Position numbers and translations under genes: made by a program. 64,000 bases of DNA, taken from assembly GCF_000531125.1 (NCBI RefSeq), contig NZ_CBTK010000212.1, forward strand, positions 1-64,000, given 5' to 3'. Origin of the DNA: Candidatus Contendobacter odensis Run_B_J11. GTDB taxonomy: Bacteria > Pseudomonadota > Gammaproteobacteria > Competibacterales > Competibacteraceae. Positions within the stretch are counted from its first letter, which is position 1. Each line of letters starts with the position of its first letter. Under the pieces are notes generated by a model, which ran no database searches, was not told where the DNA came from, and saw only the letters and a program-made list of their open reading frames with translations. Shown in pieces: positions 8,701 through 17,048 of this stretch.

Positions 8701-9684
8701 GTGTCAAGTCAGGACCAGCAGATCGTGTTCGTATTTCCGGGACAGGGTTCCCAGTACGTCGGAATGGGCAGTGACCTGCTCCGCGATTTTCCAGTCGCCC
8801 AGCGGCGCTACGAACAGGCCAATGACATCGTGGGTTACGACCTTGCCAAGCTCTGCCTGGAAGGGCCGGAAGAAGACCTCAAGCTCACCCGTCACACCCA
8901 GCCCGCCCTGCTCACCCACTCGCTGGTCTGCCTGGACATTTTCCGCGAACTGACCGAGGGTCAAGTGCAACCGGCGCTAACGGCGGGTCACAGTCTCGGC
9001 GAATACTGCGCCCTGGTCGCGGCGGGCGCGCTGGATTTCGAGACTGCCCTGCGGCTGGTGCAAAAGCGCGGTGAGTGCATGGGAACTTACGGTGACGGTG
9101 AAATGCTGGCTTTCCCGCTGCACCTTGACAACATTCAGTCCTTGGCCGAGAAGCACTATTGCGCCATTGCGGCCTCCAACCTGCCCGATCAGACCGTGGT
9201 CGGCGGACGCGGCGAAGATCTCGACCGGTTGACCGAGGACGCGCTGGCTCACTTTCCCCGCAAAAAGCCGACCCGACTCAAGACCGAAGGCGCCTTCCAC
9301 ACATTCTATATGATTACCGCTGCTCTGCACTTCCGTCCGGTACTGGACGCTGCGGAGATGCATGCACCCACCCTCCGCGTCCTCTCCAACTACAGCGGAA
9401 CCCACCACGATCCCGATCCGGCCACCATCAAAACCCGGTTGTTCTATCAACTGTTCCACCCCGTCAACTGGATCGGTAACCTGGAAACCGCCTTTCGCGA
9501 CGGTGTGACCACCATGGTCGAATTTGGCGGTGGGCTGGGCAGCGGCGCGAATCCCGAGGATAAGCGCCCCAATCTGGAAAGCATGGTCAAGAAAGCGCTG
9601 CGCGGCTCGGATTACAGCGTCCACTACCACGCCGCCATCAATAGCCAAACCTTGCGTCAAACCGCAGCAGCATTACAACCATGA
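8701..9684 (+). CDS. Stand-alone malonyl/acyl-CoA:ACP transferase (FabD-like)
   Basis: 327 residues with an acyltransferase fold. FPGQGSQ (12-18), nucleophile Ser98 in GHSLGE (96-101), Arg123 in LVQKRGECM and His200 in EGAFH form the expected active site. It transfers malonyl (or another acyl) groups from CoA to ACP. The start is GTG at 8701 with AGGAG about 10 bp upstream. It is not in a fab cluster: folD is divergent upstream, and downstream come a doubtful small frame and an IS remnant. The sequence after the active site (FHTFYM, Ala-rich end) differs from housekeeping FabD, so it may serve a polyketide- or specialised lipid-type system elsewhere. Such ATs can also have other acyl specificities. 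Confidence 0.82.
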   Translation: MSSQDQQIVFVFPGQGSQYVGMGSDLLRDFPVAQRRYEQANDIVGYDLAKLCLEGPEEDLKLTRHTQPALLTHSLVCLDIFRELTEGQVQPALTAGHSLGEYCALVAAGALDFETALRLVQKRGECMGTYGDGEMLAFPLHLDNIQSLAEKHYCAIAASNLPDQTVVGGRGEDLDRLTEDALAHFPRKKPTRLKTEGAFHTFYMITAALHFRPVLDAAEMHAPTLRVLSNYSGTHHDPDPATIKTRLFYQLFHPVNWIGNLETAFRDGVTTMVEFGGGLGSGANPEDKRPNLESMVKKALRGSDYSVHYHAAINSQTLRQTAAALQP

Positions 9685-9884
9685 CCCGCATATTTGCTCA
9701 GGCTCAACGCGCCCGCCGCCTGCTTAACCAAGTCGCGATGCAACATTTGCATCGCCGTTGCGAGGCGATCCGGGTGTTGCCGGCAGCGGAACCCGCGTCT
9801 CCTACCCTGCGATCCAGCGAGAACGTCGCGCCGCAGTCCGAAACAATGGCGGCGGAACGACCCGTCTATAGAAGTCCGGTCTGA
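9681..9884 (+). CDS. Possible small protein overlapping the acyltransferase stop
   Basis: 67 codons beginning in an ATGA overlap with the acyltransferase stop, which is typical of translational coupling. Codon use is reasonable but arginine-rich and the sequence has no recognised family; it ends close to the repeat at 9910 and the IS110 remnant. It could equally be the rump of a longer gene destroyed by that insertion or a chance frame. No independent ribosome site. Confidence 0.3.
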   Translation: MTRIFAQAQRARRLLNQVAMQHLHRRCEAIRVLPAAEPASPTLRSSENVAPQSETMAAERPVYRSPV

Positions 9885-9909
9885 GTGGTGAAATCGCCGC
9901 TTCAAACCA

Positions 9910-9945
9910 CCCCGGCGCTTCGCGCCACACCTCCTTATCCAAGGA
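9910..9945. repeat. Palindromic intergenic repeat, same family as in hyfG
   Basis: CCCCGGCGCTTCGCGCC at 9910-9926 is identical to 61147-61163, and is likewise followed by a CCTCC...CCAAGGAG inverted segment. It lies immediately before the IS110 remnant. Confidence 0.6.
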
Positions 9946-9984
9946 GCAACTGTGTTGAAAACATCAGGCCCTGCACTCCTCAGG

Positions 9985-10540
<556 letters not shown>

Positions 10541-10662: not shown

Positions 10663-11502
10663 TCAGCCGGATTGCTGCATCCATCCGTTAGCAGATGCCC
10701 GCCGCAGGCAAGCCAGACTGTAGGCCAGCGCCTTGCTCATATCCTGTTGTCGCCGCAGATAAAACCGGGCGTGCGAGGCTGGGCTATAACCGACCCGCAC
10801 GCCCAAAATGGCGGGATGCTCCAGGCGGAATACATCTTCATCGGTGTCATCGTCGCCAAAGAAGATCGCCCGGCCAAAGCTCTGTTCCGCCATTAGCCGC
10901 ACCAAGGCGCTGCCCTTGTTGGTCTCGGCATCGGGAAACAGGTTAACCACCCGTTTGCCGCCGCTGATCTGCGGGGCCGGCTGCAAATTGGGCAATGCCG
11001 CGTTAATGACCGCCAGCGCCTGATCGGGATCGGCTGCGTTGCGGTAGTGCAGAGTCAGGGTGTACTGCTTGTCCTCGACCCACACCCCCGGCAGATCAAC
11101 CCGCCCCCCGCTCCAGCGCCGGGACCAGCCGGACGGGGCGACCGTCGGCAACGGCGAGACCTGCAATTGCTCCAGCCAGCCGTTTACCAGGCCCTGCACC
11201 CGTTGCAATTCGGGATGGGTCGGATCACCCCAGTCCAGCCCGTGGTTGCCGATCATGAAATCGACTTCCACCCCAGCGAGCAGGGTCGCCAGTTCAGGGC
11301 GATGCCGCCCGGACAGGACGGCCACCGGGACATAGTGGCGCAGACGGCGCACCAGCGTCTGGATGTTCACCGCCAACAGCGTCTCGCGGGGATCGCTAGC
11401 CAGCGCGGTCAGGGTGCCGTCGTAGTCCAGGGCGAACAACGGGCGCTGGCGACACCATTCGCGTAAGGCCGCGATACCGGTTTTGGAGAAGAAGGGTTGC
11501 AC
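10663..11502 (-). CDS. otsB: Trehalose-6-phosphate phosphatase OtsB
   Basis: 279-residue HAD-superfamily phosphatase releasing trehalose from trehalose 6-phosphate. DYDGTL (26-31) holds the nucleophilic Asp; further motifs are SGRHRPEL (64-71), GNHGLDW (85-91), VEDKQYTLTLHYR (142-154), NKGSAL (195-200, conserved Lys) and FFGDDDTDEDVF (215-225). The length is normal. It follows otsA by 26 bp on the same strand, completing the two-step OtsA-OtsB pathway from UDP-glucose and glucose 6-phosphate. Trehalose is an osmo- and desiccation protectant. Confidence 0.94.
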   Translation of the reverse strand: MQPFFSKTGIAALREWCRQRPLFALDYDGTLTALASDPRETLLAVNIQTLVRRLRHYVPVAVLSGRHRPELATLLAGVEVDFMIGNHGLDWGDPTHPELQRVQGLVNGWLEQLQVSPLPTVAPSGWSRRWSGGRVDLPGVWVEDKQYTLTLHYRNAADPDQALAVINAALPNLQPAPQISGGKRVVNLFPDAETNKGSALVRLMAEQSFGRAIFFGDDDTDEDVFRLEHPAILGVRVGYSPASHARFYLRRQQDMSKALAYSLACLRRASANGWMQQSG

Positions 11503-11528: not shown

Positions 11529-13844
11529 TCAGGAGAGTTCTTTCAGTTGCGGCGCATTAGCGCCCAAACTGGACAGCTTGAGGGCGAAGCGGTTTTTCCG
11601 GCGCACCGTCGCCGCATCGAGCAGCATCCGGCCCGCCCAGCGGAAGATGTTGAATTCACTGACGTAGCTCCGCATCGCATGCATCCGCTCCCGCTGCTCG
11701 CTGGCCGGCATGGACAAGGCGACATGCAACGCCTCGGCGCACTGCTCGATGTCGTAGGGATTCACAATCAGCGCCTCGGTCAGTTCCCGTGAGGCGCCGG
11801 CAAACATGCTGAGAATCAACACGCCTTGTTCATCATCGCGGGCGGACAGATATTCCTTGGCGACCAGATTCATCCCGTCATGCAGGCTGCTGACCAGACA
11901 CAGCACCGCAGCGCGGAAATACTGAAAGACATCGACCGGCTCATGGTGTTCGATCTTGAGAATGATCGGTTGATAACGGCCATCGCCATACTTGATATTG
12001 ATCTGCTCGGCCATCGCCCGCACCTCGGCGTCGAAATGCTGATAGGCCGGCAGCGAGGAGCGGGACGGCGCGGCGATCTGCACAAAGGAAAACTGGCCAA
12101 TCCATTCGGGATGCTTTTCCAGCAGGCGTTCGATAGCGCGAAATCGTTCGACAATGCCCTTGGTGTAATCCAGCCGGTCAACCCCAATCCCGATCAGAAT
12201 GCCCTCAGGGATGTTGTCGCGGGCATGAATCCGCTGGAGGCATTCCGGACCAGGCGGCACCTCCGCCAACCAGCGTGGCGGCCATTCAATCGAAATCGGG
12301 TAGGGCCGCACCAGGGTGATCTTGCCGTTGTAGGAGATCGACGAGGTCTCCCGTTCGATCCGCGACTCCAGAAACCGATCCACCGTATCAATGAAATTGT
12401 CGGCGTGATAGCGGGTATGGAAACCCATGATGGTGCTGCCGAGCAAGCCTTCCAGAATCGCTTCCCGCCACGGGCAGATGCCGAAGACTTCCTGATTGGG
12501 CCAGGGAATGTGCCAGAAGGTGATGATGGTGGCTTGCGGCAACTGGGCGCGAATCATCTGCGGCAGCAGGGCAAAGTGGTAATCCTGAATCAATACCACC
12601 GGGTCGGCGCTCCGCGCATCCCGCACCACGGCATCGGCGAATTTCTGGTTGACCTTGACGTACTCCTCCCAATCCGAACCCCGGAAAATCGGGCGGGTAT
12701 GGGCGATATGGCACAACGGCCACAGCCCTTCATTAGAGAAGCCGTAGTAGTAGCCGAGTTCCTCTTCCTTGCTGAGCCAGACCCGGTGGATTTCATACTG
12801 CGGATTGTCCGGCGGCACCTTGACCCGGTCCCGTTCGTCCACCACCTCACGGTCAGCAGAGCCATTGCCGTGCGCCACCCATACCCCGGAGCAGGCCCGG
12901 ACAATCGGCTCCATCGCCGTAACCAGCCCGCTGGCCGGAAAATGGACCTCAATCTGATCGCCGACCCGACTATGGATGTAGGGCTGGCGGTTGGACACCA
13001 CAATGACTTCATCGCCGGACAGTTCAGTGGACAGGATTTCACGCAGTTTTTGCGGGGTCCAGTGCAGTTGCAGGTCGTCGCTGATAGCACGGTTATCTTC
13101 CAGATCCCGCATCAGGTTCTTGATGTCGCGCAGGATCGGTTGAAATTCCTGGTGCTGGGGCGCAACCAGGTTATCAGCAAGGCTGGGCTTGCGTACCTCG
13201 TTGAGCAGGGTTCGCATCGAATTCATCCATTCCTTGCGGCTCCAGCGGGCTACAAGCACCGCAACCAGCGAGGTCACTACGCCAATGATCAGAATCAGCG
13301 CAATCAGATAATTACGGGTGTCGCCGCTGCGCCGCTCGGCCACGCTCAGGTCATGGACGATGATCAGCCGGCTCAACCCAACCGCGACGGATGACGCGCC
13401 TTCTGCCTCGACTGACAGCGCGACCAGGGGGGTGGCAGTGATACTGAAGCGGCCCCCCTTGAGCGTCTTGGTCATCAACGGCAACGGCGTATTGGCTGAG
13501 GTTTGAGGGTCGGTGGGGATATCCTGACAAGCCAAATCCGCCGGGAACAGGATGGTTTTGAACTCCAATACATTGTTGGCATCGCAATAGCCCATGGCCA
13601 GGATGCGTTCATCCTGGGCGACCTTGTCCAGGAGCGCCTGGATCTTGCTTTTCCGCTCGCGGCCCTTCGTTAACAGCAAGGGCTGCAAGCTTTCCTGAAG
13701 GGTATTGGTCACCAGTTGGCTACGCAATTCCAGATCCTTGATAAACCAGCGCTGGGTCACTAAATCCATCACCGGAACCATCATTGCGCCAATGATCCCT
13801 AACACGATGATCAGGGGAATGACAAACTTAAGAATCAGTTTCAT
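11529..13844 (-). CDS. otsA: Membrane-anchored trehalose-6-P synthase with sensor-like N-terminus
   Basis: 771 residues, about 300 more than ordinary OtsA. Residues 5-27 and 178-200 are membrane helices enclosing a periplasmic segment of about 150 residues, followed by a HAMP-like/coiled linker (201-278), the layout of a receptor. From about 279 comes a complete GT20 catalytic domain: VVSNRQPY, SGLVTAMEP (305-313), QDYHFALLPQ, FWHIPWPNQE, GVDRLDYTKG and SLHDGMNLVAKEY. It condenses a nucleotide-activated glucose with glucose 6-phosphate at the inner face of the membrane. The first 17 bp overlap the diguanylate cyclase gene upstream; otsB follows. The fusion suggests direct sensing of an envelope or osmotic signal, which is inference. 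Confidence 0.92.
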   Translation of the reverse strand: MKLILKFVIPLIIVLGIIGAMMVPVMDLVTQRWFIKDLELRSQLVTNTLQESLQPLLLTKGRERKSKIQALLDKVAQDERILAMGYCDANNVLEFKTILFPADLACQDIPTDPQTSANTPLPLMTKTLKGGRFSITATPLVALSVEAEGASSVAVGLSRLIIVHDLSVAERRSGDTRNYLIALILIIGVVTSLVAVLVARWSRKEWMNSMRTLLNEVRKPSLADNLVAPQHQEFQPILRDIKNLMRDLEDNRAISDDLQLHWTPQKLREILSTELSGDEVIVVSNRQPYIHSRVGDQIEVHFPASGLVTAMEPIVRACSGVWVAHGNGSADREVVDERDRVKVPPDNPQYEIHRVWLSKEEELGYYYGFSNEGLWPLCHIAHTRPIFRGSDWEEYVKVNQKFADAVVRDARSADPVVLIQDYHFALLPQMIRAQLPQATIITFWHIPWPNQEVFGICPWREAILEGLLGSTIMGFHTRYHADNFIDTVDRFLESRIERETSSISYNGKITLVRPYPISIEWPPRWLAEVPPGPECLQRIHARDNIPEGILIGIGVDRLDYTKGIVERFRAIERLLEKHPEWIGQFSFVQIAAPSRSSLPAYQHFDAEVRAMAEQINIKYGDGRYQPIILKIEHHEPVDVFQYFRAAVLCLVSSLHDGMNLVAKEYLSARDDEQGVLILSMFAGASRELTEALIVNPYDIEQCAEALHVALSMPASEQRERMHAMRSYVSEFNIFRWAGRMLLDAATVRRKNRFALKLSSLGANAPQLKELS

Positions 13845-14700
13845 TTTGGTTCCAGTAGGTCATAAATTTGGCCCCGTTTTTAGAGCCTTTCTTAACGGAA
13901 TACATTAAATGGTCGGCCATTGCAATTATCCTGTCAATAGCCGGAATATTTTCAATGCAGGTTAAAACCCCAAAACTGAAAGTTACCGGCCAGTCATTTT
14001 TATCCATGACACTCATCAGATGATTTTGAATTTTGGCGATCACAATCTGTGCTGAGGCCTGATCGGTAACCGGTAGCAGCAAAATAAACTCATCACCGCC
14101 AACTCTAGCGACAATATCGCTATCACGCAAATTTTCCCTAATCGCATCGACCACTGCACAGAGCAGCTTATTACCGGCATCATGGCCTCGCGTATCGTTG
14201 ATCGCTTTAAAATTATCGACATCAATATAGGCCAGACTCAAGGCGTATCCATAGCGGATGGCACGACTAACCTCGACTTCGGCAATCTCATGGAAGGCCC
14301 GAAAATTAAGGCTTTTTGTGACAGGATCTTCGCGAGAGAGATCATGTTTTTCCAGAAGAAGGGTTTTCAATGCCCTCAACAGGAGTGCGATAATGATCAG
14401 CAAGATAAAGCGCGACAGATAATTCCAGCTATAGACCAATAGATTAGGGTAAATACGGTTTAAAAAATAATCGACCGCGAGCCAAGTCACCGCACTGAAT
14501 AGCGAGATGGCAATTGCAGTATTTTTGTTGGAAAACCACGCAGCAATAACGACCGGAAACAGGTAAAACAGTGCGAAGGTAATTTGAGACCCTGTTATAC
14601 AATCGACAACACCAATACCCATAACGCTCAGAAACGCGATGATCACCAAGACCCAATATTGCCTGTTACACATTGTTTGTAGAAAAATTTGTGAATTCAC
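13828..14700 (-). CDS. Membrane diguanylate cyclase (GGDEF)
   Basis: 290 residues with about four membrane helices (17-37, 40-56, 60-80, 93-112) and a C-terminal GGDEF domain making c-di-GMP from two GTP. The active site GGDEF is at 201-205; an allosteric inhibitory RxxD (RDSD, 192-195) sits exactly five residues before it, so product inhibition is expected. DPVTKSLNFRAF (125-136) is the usual domain start. GTG at 14700 with GGAGAG upstream is taken as start; ATG at 14673 is an alternative. Its stop overlaps the start of the otsA fusion by 17 bp, indicating coupled expression with trehalose synthesis. Confidence 0.9.
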   Translation of the reverse strand: MNSQIFLQTMCNRQYWVLVIIAFLSVMGIGVVDCITGSQITFALFYLFPVVIAAWFSNKNTAIAISLFSAVTWLAVDYFLNRIYPNLLVYSWNYLSRFILLIIIALLLRALKTLLLEKHDLSREDPVTKSLNFRAFHEIAEVEVSRAIRYGYALSLAYIDVDNFKAINDTRGHDAGNKLLCAVVDAIRENLRDSDIVARVGGDEFILLLPVTDQASAQIVIAKIQNHLMSVMDKNDWPVTFSFGVLTCIENIPAIDRIIAMADHLMYSVKKGSKNGAKFMTYWNQNETDS

Positions 14701-15392: not shown

Positions 15393-17048
15393 GTGTCCCG
15401 ACGGTTGCAGCGTTCGACCTGGCGCCTGATCGCGCTGCTGGTCAGTATGCCAACAGCGGTACTGATCTTCGGCAGTATTTACCAACTGGGTTCGACCTAT
15501 CTGGAAGAAAAGCCCATTAACTTCTGGTCGAGTCTGGAATGGGCCTCTGAGACCCTGACCACCACCGGGTACGGTGCCTACGCGCCTTGGCATCATCCGG
15601 TGATGACGCTGTTCGTGATCCTGACCCAGTTTGTCGGCATGTTCTTCCTGGTGCTGGTCTTCCCCGTGTACGTGTTGCCCTACATTGAGGAACGGTTCGA
15701 GATGCGGCTGCCGCACATTCTGCCGGCGATGGCGGGGCGAGTGCTGTTCTATCGCTATGGCCCTACGATTGACTCGCTGCTGGAGGAATTCCAGCGTGTC
15801 GGCGCGGCGTTCGTCATTTTTGAAGAAGACATGACGCTGGCCCGCAGCCTGCGTGATCGGGACTACCCGGTTGTTTTCGGGACGCTCGACGAAAATCCGG
15901 GTGTGCTAGCAGGAGTGGAGCGGGCGCAGGCGGTGGTCGCTAACGCCGGCGACCATGCCAACGCGATCTGTATCCTGATCGCCCGCGAGCAGGGCTTTAG
16001 CGGTCCGATTTACGCGCTGGCGAACGATCCCCTGTACCGGCCTCCCATGTTAAAGGTGGGGGCATCCGCCGTGTTCACCCCAACCCATGTACTCGGCGCG
16101 GCGCTGGCGGCGCGGGCCAGTACCCGCATCAGTCCCCCCGCAGAGGGACTGCATCTCCTCAGTGCGCAGGTGGGCCTTGCCGAATTCCGGGTTCGGGCGG
16201 ACAGTCCGTTGGCCGGGCAGCGGCTGGGTGAACTGCGGTTGCGCGAACATCACGGCGTCACCGTGATCGGCCAGTGGTGTGGCGGTCACTTCACCATCGC
16301 CACGGGGCCGGACACCCGCATCGAGCCAGGCGCGATTCTGGTCGTGGTCGGTGCCCACATCCATCTGGCTCAAGTCGAGCTTCTAGCCGCGCCAATTCGC
16401 CGTACCGGTCCTATCGTGGTGGCCGGTTACGGCACCGTCGGTAGCAAGGTGGTGGAAATGCTGCGCGACGCCCATGAACTCACCATTGTGATTGACCAAC
16501 AACTGGTTCCCGGAGTTGACATCGTTGGCAACATCCTTGAACACGCCACATTGGCCCGAGCCAGTGTGCGTACCGCGAGCGCGGTGGTGTTGGCGTTGAG
16601 CAACGATAGCGAAGGGGTCTTTGCTACGGCGGTGGTTCGCGATTACGCGCCCGAAGTTCCGCTCATTGTCCGGGTCAATCGGGCACCGAATATTCCACGG
16701 TTGTATCAGGCGGGTGCGGACTTCGCTTTGTCAGTGGGTCAGGTCGCGGGGCAAATTCTCGCTTACCATCTCCTCGGCGAAAAGACGGTCGCGGTTGAAC
16801 AGCGCCTCAAATTCATCCGGGTGGCAGCAGGCGCTCTAGCAGGCGCGCATCCGTGGCGTACTCAGGTGCGCGAGCGAACCGGGGCCGCCGTGGTGGCGCT
16901 AGAGCGGGATCAGACCGTTTTCGTCAAGTTTGATGACGCCTTCCGGGTCCACCCGGACGATATCCTGTTCGTCTGTGGAACGCCGGACAGCCTGAAACAG
17001 TACCTGCACGAGTTTCAGGCAACGCCTGCCGAAAATCTGCACACTTGA
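15393..17048 (+). CDS. Potassium channel with RCK (TrkA-N/TrkA-C) domains
   Basis: 551 residues. Two membrane helices (about 11-33 and 69-97) flank a pore loop with selectivity filter T-T-G-Y-G (57-61) instead of the usual TVGYG. A cytosolic tandem RCK region follows: a first Rossmann-like unit at about 115-230, a TrkA-C-like unit (AEFRVRADSPLAGQRLGEL), a second Rossmann fold with GYGTVG, and a final TrkA-C unit ending near 545. It should form a tetrameric ligand-gated K+ channel of the inner membrane, as in MthK/Kch relatives. The start is GTG at 15393 with GGAG upstream. Gene stands alone, so its role (turgor, pH or membrane potential) is open. Confidence 0.85.
   Translation: MSRRLQRSTWRLIALLVSMPTAVLIFGSIYQLGSTYLEEKPINFWSSLEWASETLTTTGYGAYAPWHHPVMTLFVILTQFVGMFFLVLVFPVYVLPYIEERFEMRLPHILPAMAGRVLFYRYGPTIDSLLEEFQRVGAAFVIFEEDMTLARSLRDRDYPVVFGTLDENPGVLAGVERAQAVVANAGDHANAICILIAREQGFSGPIYALANDPLYRPPMLKVGASAVFTPTHVLGAALAARASTRISPPAEGLHLLSAQVGLAEFRVRADSPLAGQRLGELRLREHHGVTVIGQWCGGHFTIATGPDTRIEPGAILVVVGAHIHLAQVELLAAPIRRTGPIVVAGYGTVGSKVVEMLRDAHELTIVIDQQLVPGVDIVGNILEHATLARASVRTASAVVLALSNDSEGVFATAVVRDYAPEVPLIVRVNRAPNIPRLYQAGADFALSVGQVAGQILAYHLLGEKTVAVEQRLKFIRVAAGALAGAHPWRTQVRERTGAAVVALERDQTVFVKFDDAFRVHPDDILFVCGTPDSLKQYLHEFQATPAENLHT

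Follow-up and report, generated by a model that had tools for sequence, protein, structure and literature searches.

A membrane-anchored trehalose-6-phosphate synthase with the architecture of a transmembrane receptor

In 64,000 nucleotides of Candidatus Contendobacter odensis Run_B_J11 (contig NZ_CBTK010000212.1; "the window" below means this whole stretch), we analyzed a trehalose-6-phosphate (T6P) synthase that appears to be built as a transmembrane receptor with a biosynthetic enzyme as its output. Judging from sequence and structure prediction, we estimate a probability of roughly 60% that a periplasmic signal directly controls T6P synthesis in this protein. Trehalose is a stress-protecting sugar, and the T6P synthase OtsA is normally dissolved in the cytoplasm. 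Here, a biosynthetic enzyme occupies the output position of a receptor across several phyla, and annotation conceals it as a plain trehalose-6-phosphate synthase. If the control is direct, no route from envelope stimulus to protective solute could be shorter. Even if the N-terminus were a mere anchor, a whole clade of a supposedly cytosolic enzyme would be membrane-bound, which has consequences for the way trehalose synthesis ought to be measured in Betaproteobacteria, Nitrospira, relatives of Geobacter, and others.

Anatomy of the protein

The protein is encoded by a single frame that runs for 771 codons without interruption. Its parts, together with the gene directly downstream, are as follows:

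11529..13844, minus strand: membrane-anchored trehalose-6-phosphate synthase gene (771 aa; coordinates include the stop codon); single ORF, full length in 80 loci of other genomes
13764..13832, minus strand: first transmembrane helix (TM1), residues 5-27, beginning the continuous helix 2-57 (hydropathy; AlphaFold2)
13311..13763, minus strand: periplasmic single-Cache/PAS-like sensor domain, residues 28-178 (AlphaFold2, Foldseek, purifying selection)
13584..13586, minus strand: codon of the invariant periplasmic Cys87, at the end of the first strand (Cys in 89/89)
13527..13529, minus strand: codon of the invariant periplasmic Cys106 (Cys in 89/89; Cys-Cys segment length 20 in 88/89)
13248..13310, minus strand: second transmembrane helix (TM2), residues 179-199, within the continuous helix 167-215 (hydropathy; AlphaFold2; R172-A199 length fixed in 89/89)
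13068..13247, minus strand: HAMP-like two-helix linker, residues 200-259 (helix to 215, connector, helix 232-259; AlphaFold2; indels confined to the connector)
13011..13067, minus strand: junction segment, residues 260-278 (helix 264-274), entering the first GT20 strand (W262-N285 is 24 residues in 89/89; motif retained in the sensor-less subclade)
11622..13010, minus strand: GT20 catalytic domain, residues 279-741 (PF00982, E = 2e-119; 5jio fold match, TMt 0.90; invariant catalytic residues)
10663..11502, minus strand: otsB, trehalose-6-phosphate phosphatase, directly downstream (PF02358, E = 1.1e-22)

We regard the predicted anatomy, in which TM1, a periplasmic domain, TM2 and a two-helix linker precede a complete GT20 domain, as firmly shown. 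The initial annotation had placed helices at residues 5-27 and 178-200 around a periplasmic domain of about 150 residues. Hydropathy and AlphaFold2 both give helices and agree with this placement, with exactly two N-terminal transmembrane segments by hydropathy (about 7-25 and 180-198). The AlphaFold2 model, built with 49 homologues, had a mean pLDDT of 86.9. It starts with helices 2-57 and 62-75 and strands 83-87, 93-96, 124-128, 131-140 and 158-165; the sensor is followed by helix 167-215 and, after a stretch predicted with low confidence, by helices 232-259 and 264-274, which precede the GT20 fold. With Pfam, GT20 was the sole match in the protein. Neither HisKA/HATPase nor a receiver domain was found, in accordance with the earlier proposal that no phosphorelay is involved.

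The periplasmic domain is, in the predicted structure, a single-Cache/PAS-like fold. The initial annotation had asked whether residues 28-177 are Cache/PAS-like or helical, and AlphaFold2 combined with Foldseek answers in favor of the former. Predicted alone (residues 28-180), the domain reached a pLDDT of 87.7 and a pTM of 0.82; a long N-terminal helix and a PAS-like five-strand sheet fill the region between the transmembrane helices (AlphaFold2, Foldseek, hydropathy). The best Foldseek matches in the PDB were all extracellular sensor domains, with WalK/YycG (4ywz_B) at the top (E = 1.8e-5, TM 0.64) and KinD, DctB, CusS, LuxQ and McpU among the others. The fold match to WalK, KinD, DctB and CusS supports the receptor-type N-terminus that had been proposed from the letters. 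None of the Pfam Cache models matched the window protein, and in a divergent group of relatives (group B, see below) the matches to dCache_1 (25.8 bits, cut-off 45; 9e-6) and CHASE8 (5e-4) were sub-threshold. We therefore call the domain Cache-like by fold, and not a member by the Pfam criterion.

Seven residues, namely W33, D37, R80, C87, C106, D165 and R172, are invariant in 89/89 sensor-bearing members. Among them, the cysteine pair C87-C106 could form a disulfide, a redox site or a metal site. Between close orthologues, omega was 0.10-0.21 for the sensor versus 0.045-0.07 for GT20, so the sensor is, by this estimate, under purifying selection; a decaying remnant was ruled out by omega values of 0.1-0.2 together with the invariant residues. 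When the sensor profile was searched against 59 relatives and 399 phylum genomes, it returned membrane GT20 proteins and, besides these, a single match in a 161-aa frame that was both marginal and partial (G216, E = 0.007). In these genomes the sensor looks dedicated to the enzyme, and on this basis we rejected the idea of a promiscuous module shared with other receptors. As a separate observation, the sensor-coding part of the window gene diverged about twice as much at fourfold sites as the rest of the gene in comparison with L004 (G011) and L005 (G003); for L004, the differences amounted to 31/58 in codons 1-180 and 63/243 in codons 241-771. This is a hint, from sequence divergence, of recombination near the boundary between sensor and enzyme.

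From the periplasm to the enzyme, the spacing is mostly fixed. The segments D165-R172 (8 residues), R172-A199 (28), P236-W262 (27) and W262-N285 (24) each have the same length in 89/89 proteins, and the connector between A199 and P236 ranges from 32 to 46 residues among the 89. A rod that is rigid from the periplasm through TM2, a connector that is loose, and a second helix that again leads rigidly into the enzyme resemble helix-based receptors; the fixed spacing could also come from plain structural packing. The linker had been described as HAMP-like, and the shape part of this description stands: in the AlphaFold2 model, TM2 passes directly into two helices (to 215 and 232-259) joined by a connector. 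Homology to HAMP by sequence was not shown for the window protein, which we count against the receptor reading, and was marginal in group B only. PF00672 had no match in the window protein or its close clade, and the match in group B was sub-threshold (20.3 bits, cut-off 25; 7e-4). We also compared the linker profile with 18 HAMP domains from the same genome; the two were in register without reaching significance (E = 0.011 with 49 rows and 0.09 with 89 rows), and the group B linker gave E = 1.1e-4, comparable to a genuine divergent HAMP. Because these sequence tests were non-significant, we name the linker HAMP-like, not HAMP, and a HAMP domain as an established fact was downgraded, since neither Pfam nor the profile comparison gives a significant match in the window protein's own group.

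The catalytic domain is intact, as the initial annotation had stated: the Pfam GT20 score was 399.9 bits against a cut-off of 32.5, the catalytic site is complete, and GT20 was above the cut-off in 49/49 A1 members. With TIGR02400, the NCBIfam OtsA equivalog, the protein scored 412.7 bits, below the cut-off of 564.85, which makes it a GT20 family member outside the OtsA equivalog as drawn by NCBI. This shortfall is what speaks for a different role in vivo, in which GT20 would make a related product (e.g. glucosylglycerol phosphate) or would act as a substrate-binding sensor and not as an enzyme. We consider such a role improbable. The glucosylglycerol-phosphate synthase model scored 276.6 bits, far below the OtsA model, and otsB adjoins the gene in 52 loci. 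Moreover, the donor and acceptor residues given for Mycobacterium thermoresistibile OtsA (PMC6879718), which we carried over by hand through the alignment, are kept, with Gln146 being His. The acceptor residues correspond to R286, Y366, D421, H423 (the position of Gln146) and R595, and the donor residues to R557, K562, D656 and E664. H423 is invariant in the 49-row alignment and all the others in 89/89 proteins. On this sequence evidence, T6P synthase function is very likely. When OtsA closes, its helix 1 and the R35-G39 loop shift by up to about 12 Å (PMC6879718), and the linker of the window protein enters just before the region matching this mobile helix and loop.

Distribution of the membrane-bound clade

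We scanned one genome per species and obtained at least 580 relatives, the best 80 loci of which were inspected. In all of these 80, the alignment starts within the first 26 residues and covers the protein through the end of GT20. The phyletic search suggested by the initial annotation recovered the same fusion in the best 80 loci. At least seven phyla are represented, namely Pseudomonadota, Nitrospirota, Thermodesulfobacteriota, Myxococcota, Bdellovibrionota, Acidobacteriota and Gemmatimonadota; one further locus belongs to a Cloacimonadota MAG. Exactly two N-terminal transmembrane segments were present in 95 of the 102 proteins screened by hydropathy, and the five proteins with none were all classical OtsA. 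The same layout, with a frame that is never interrupted, occurs in 89 sensor-bearing homologues from separate assemblies, one of which is a complete chromosome. Because of these 89 homologues, sequencing error or chance joining is excluded, and the concern of the initial annotation that a separate gene had been joined by sequencing error falls away; we give next to no probability to an assembly or annotation artefact in which a fragment of a receptor gene was fused to otsA, and we found nothing in its favor. The receptor-type architecture is not a one-off: as far as sequences tell, it is ancient and occurs in at least seven phyla.

In a tree of the GT20 domain (94 rows, from a quick search and with long branches), all membrane forms grouped together, separately from soluble OtsA, in one clade with an SH-aLRT of 100 and a stem length of 1.55. 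Group A, inside this clade, has the architecture of the window protein. Group B comprises divergent proteins from the window's own family (L007-L018); the group A sensor profile still detected their sensor, with E down to 1.4e-7. Group C is one subclade (support 99), in which the sensor is lost and one transmembrane helix is kept. One long-branch protein, L119, appears soluble. The nearest soluble forms seen were haloarchaeal GT20 proteins of 505-568 aa that adjoin otsB and are about 40% identical; two of these, on haloarchaeal plasmids (L153 and L154), are nearer to the clade's catalytic domain than the bacterial soluble OtsA seen. A haloarchaeal soluble GT20 is thus a possible origin of that domain. 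Within the window's own genus, L005 (G003) carries a group A and L011 (G007) a group B protein, which suggests replacement or horizontal transfer. In another locus (L054, 11756-14203, minus strand), a second GT20 protein, soluble and extended by about 276 residues at its N-terminus, is encoded about 3.5 kb away from a membrane T6P synthase on the same contig.

The pattern in group C bears on what the N-terminus is for. In 16/16 proteins examined, a transmembrane segment (hydropathy 1.9-3.2) lies 52-64 residues ahead of GT20 with differing helix sequences, and classical OtsA from the same search had no transmembrane helix. Since the sensor-less proteins retain the helix in all 16 cases, membrane anchoring matters in itself; no other trait is as persistent, and sensing could be dispensed with once. 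The predicted helices show that part of the purpose of the N-terminus is membrane location itself. We count this against the receptor reading, as the sensor was lost once, the helix stayed, and anchoring alone suffices there. The same evidence, together with the lack of a helix in classical OtsA of the same family, favors a reading in which the main role of the N-terminus is to keep the enzyme at the inner membrane, close to OtsB, transporters or the envelope; the periplasmic domain would then be a structural or dimerizing cap without signal-dependent control. Nevertheless, a mere cap would not need seven N-terminal residues that never vary, nor a sensor kept under purifying selection across phyla; the fold is that of ligand sensors, and the spacing is rigid from the periplasm to the catalytic domain. 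We therefore judge the cap-and-anchor arrangement, the main rival, rather unlikely as the whole explanation, and prefer a receptor that is also anchored.

Genomic neighborhood

Near the membrane T6P synthase, 52 loci have otsB and 44 have a GH15 hydrolase. The accessible part of a paper on a Ramlibacter otsB-GH15-otsA cluster interprets the cluster as trehalose synthesis with a candidate trehalase, and membrane helices are not mentioned in that part (PMC3164672). MarR regulators, TreS/GlgB-like enzymes, NhaA, and CLC and MscS channels recurred in a few loci. As raw counts, these neighbors only hint at ionic or osmotic stress. The window's own genome also encodes TreY and TreS, which rules out the membrane T6P synthase as the sole route to trehalose; no further GT20 genes were found in the assembly (99.5% complete).

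Upstream, the gene of a GGDEF protein with a DUF4118-like N-terminal membrane region (13828-14700, minus strand) overlaps the first 17 bases of the T6P synthase gene, which suggests translational coupling. We rejected this gene as a part of the mechanism, because it stands only beside the window gene and that of one relative (L002) and is absent there in others. Further upstream of both genes, and divergent from them, lies a potassium-channel-like protein with TrkA-N/TrkA-C (15393-17048, plus strand). Downstream of otsB, overlapping frames at 9657-10510 (minus strand) resemble, by eye, a broken transposase.

Proposed mechanism and comparison with known systems

The mechanism we propose would operate in a dimer. 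A periplasmic stimulus, either a small ligand or the redox state acting through the C87-C106 pair, would shift TM2. TM2 is predicted to continue unbroken into a cytoplasmic helix, from which the flexible connector and then the second helix, whose spacing is fixed, lead into the N-terminal Rossmann domain. The linker would relay the shift to the start of this domain, beside the beta1-alpha1 region that must move for the active site to close. T6P synthesis, and then trehalose production through OtsB, would go up or down as a direct consequence, with neither a kinase nor a transcription step in between; membrane anchoring would be a second, separable function. The broader claim is that these proteins form a widespread, undescribed receptor class, in which a Cache-like domain bearing two invariant cysteines reads a periplasmic cue and sets T6P synthesis allosterically, without a kinase, second messenger or gene regulation; for this we see the chances as about even.

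A membrane-, HAMP- or sensor-linked OtsA was not described in the open-access literature we searched, an absence that is weak evidence as subscription papers lie mostly outside it. In the accessible text of a 2024 review of alpha-glucans, a term search found OtsA and neither "transmembrane" nor "membrane-bound". The known bacterial transmembrane receptors signal, to our knowledge, to kinases, chemotaxis proteins, nucleotide cyclases or phosphatases.

Soluble OtsA of E. coli and M. thermoresistibile shares with the window protein the GT-B fold (5jio, TMt 0.90), complete donor and acceptor sites and the otsB neighbor. By contrast, it has no transmembrane helix, and the clade of the window protein stands separate with about 278 extra residues and scores under the TIGR02400 cut-off. 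The sensor kinases WalK/YycG, KinD, DctB and CusS resemble the window protein in their periplasmic fold and in the layout of a PAS-like domain between two transmembrane helices, with a weak profile match between WalK and residues 1-88 (E = 0.00097). Unlike them, the window protein lacks HisKA/HATPase, has a glycosyltransferase as output and belongs to a group marked by the invariant cysteine pair. Cache one-component receptors with GGDEF/EAL, adenylate cyclase, PP2C or Ser/Thr kinase outputs are alike in that a membrane receptor is directly fused to an enzyme. In a survey of Cache domains, the tabulated outputs are signaling domains, with no glycosyltransferase; its sequences were gathered by known signaling outputs, so that it could not find a class of receptor-T6P synthases (PMC4822843). 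Finally, the sensor-less GT20 proteins with a single transmembrane helix (e.g. Aminobacter aminovorans WP_083948901.1, 605 aa) share a membrane helix with the window protein and fall in the same GT20 subclade (about 690-740 bits); they differ from it in having lost the sensor domain and the second linker helix.
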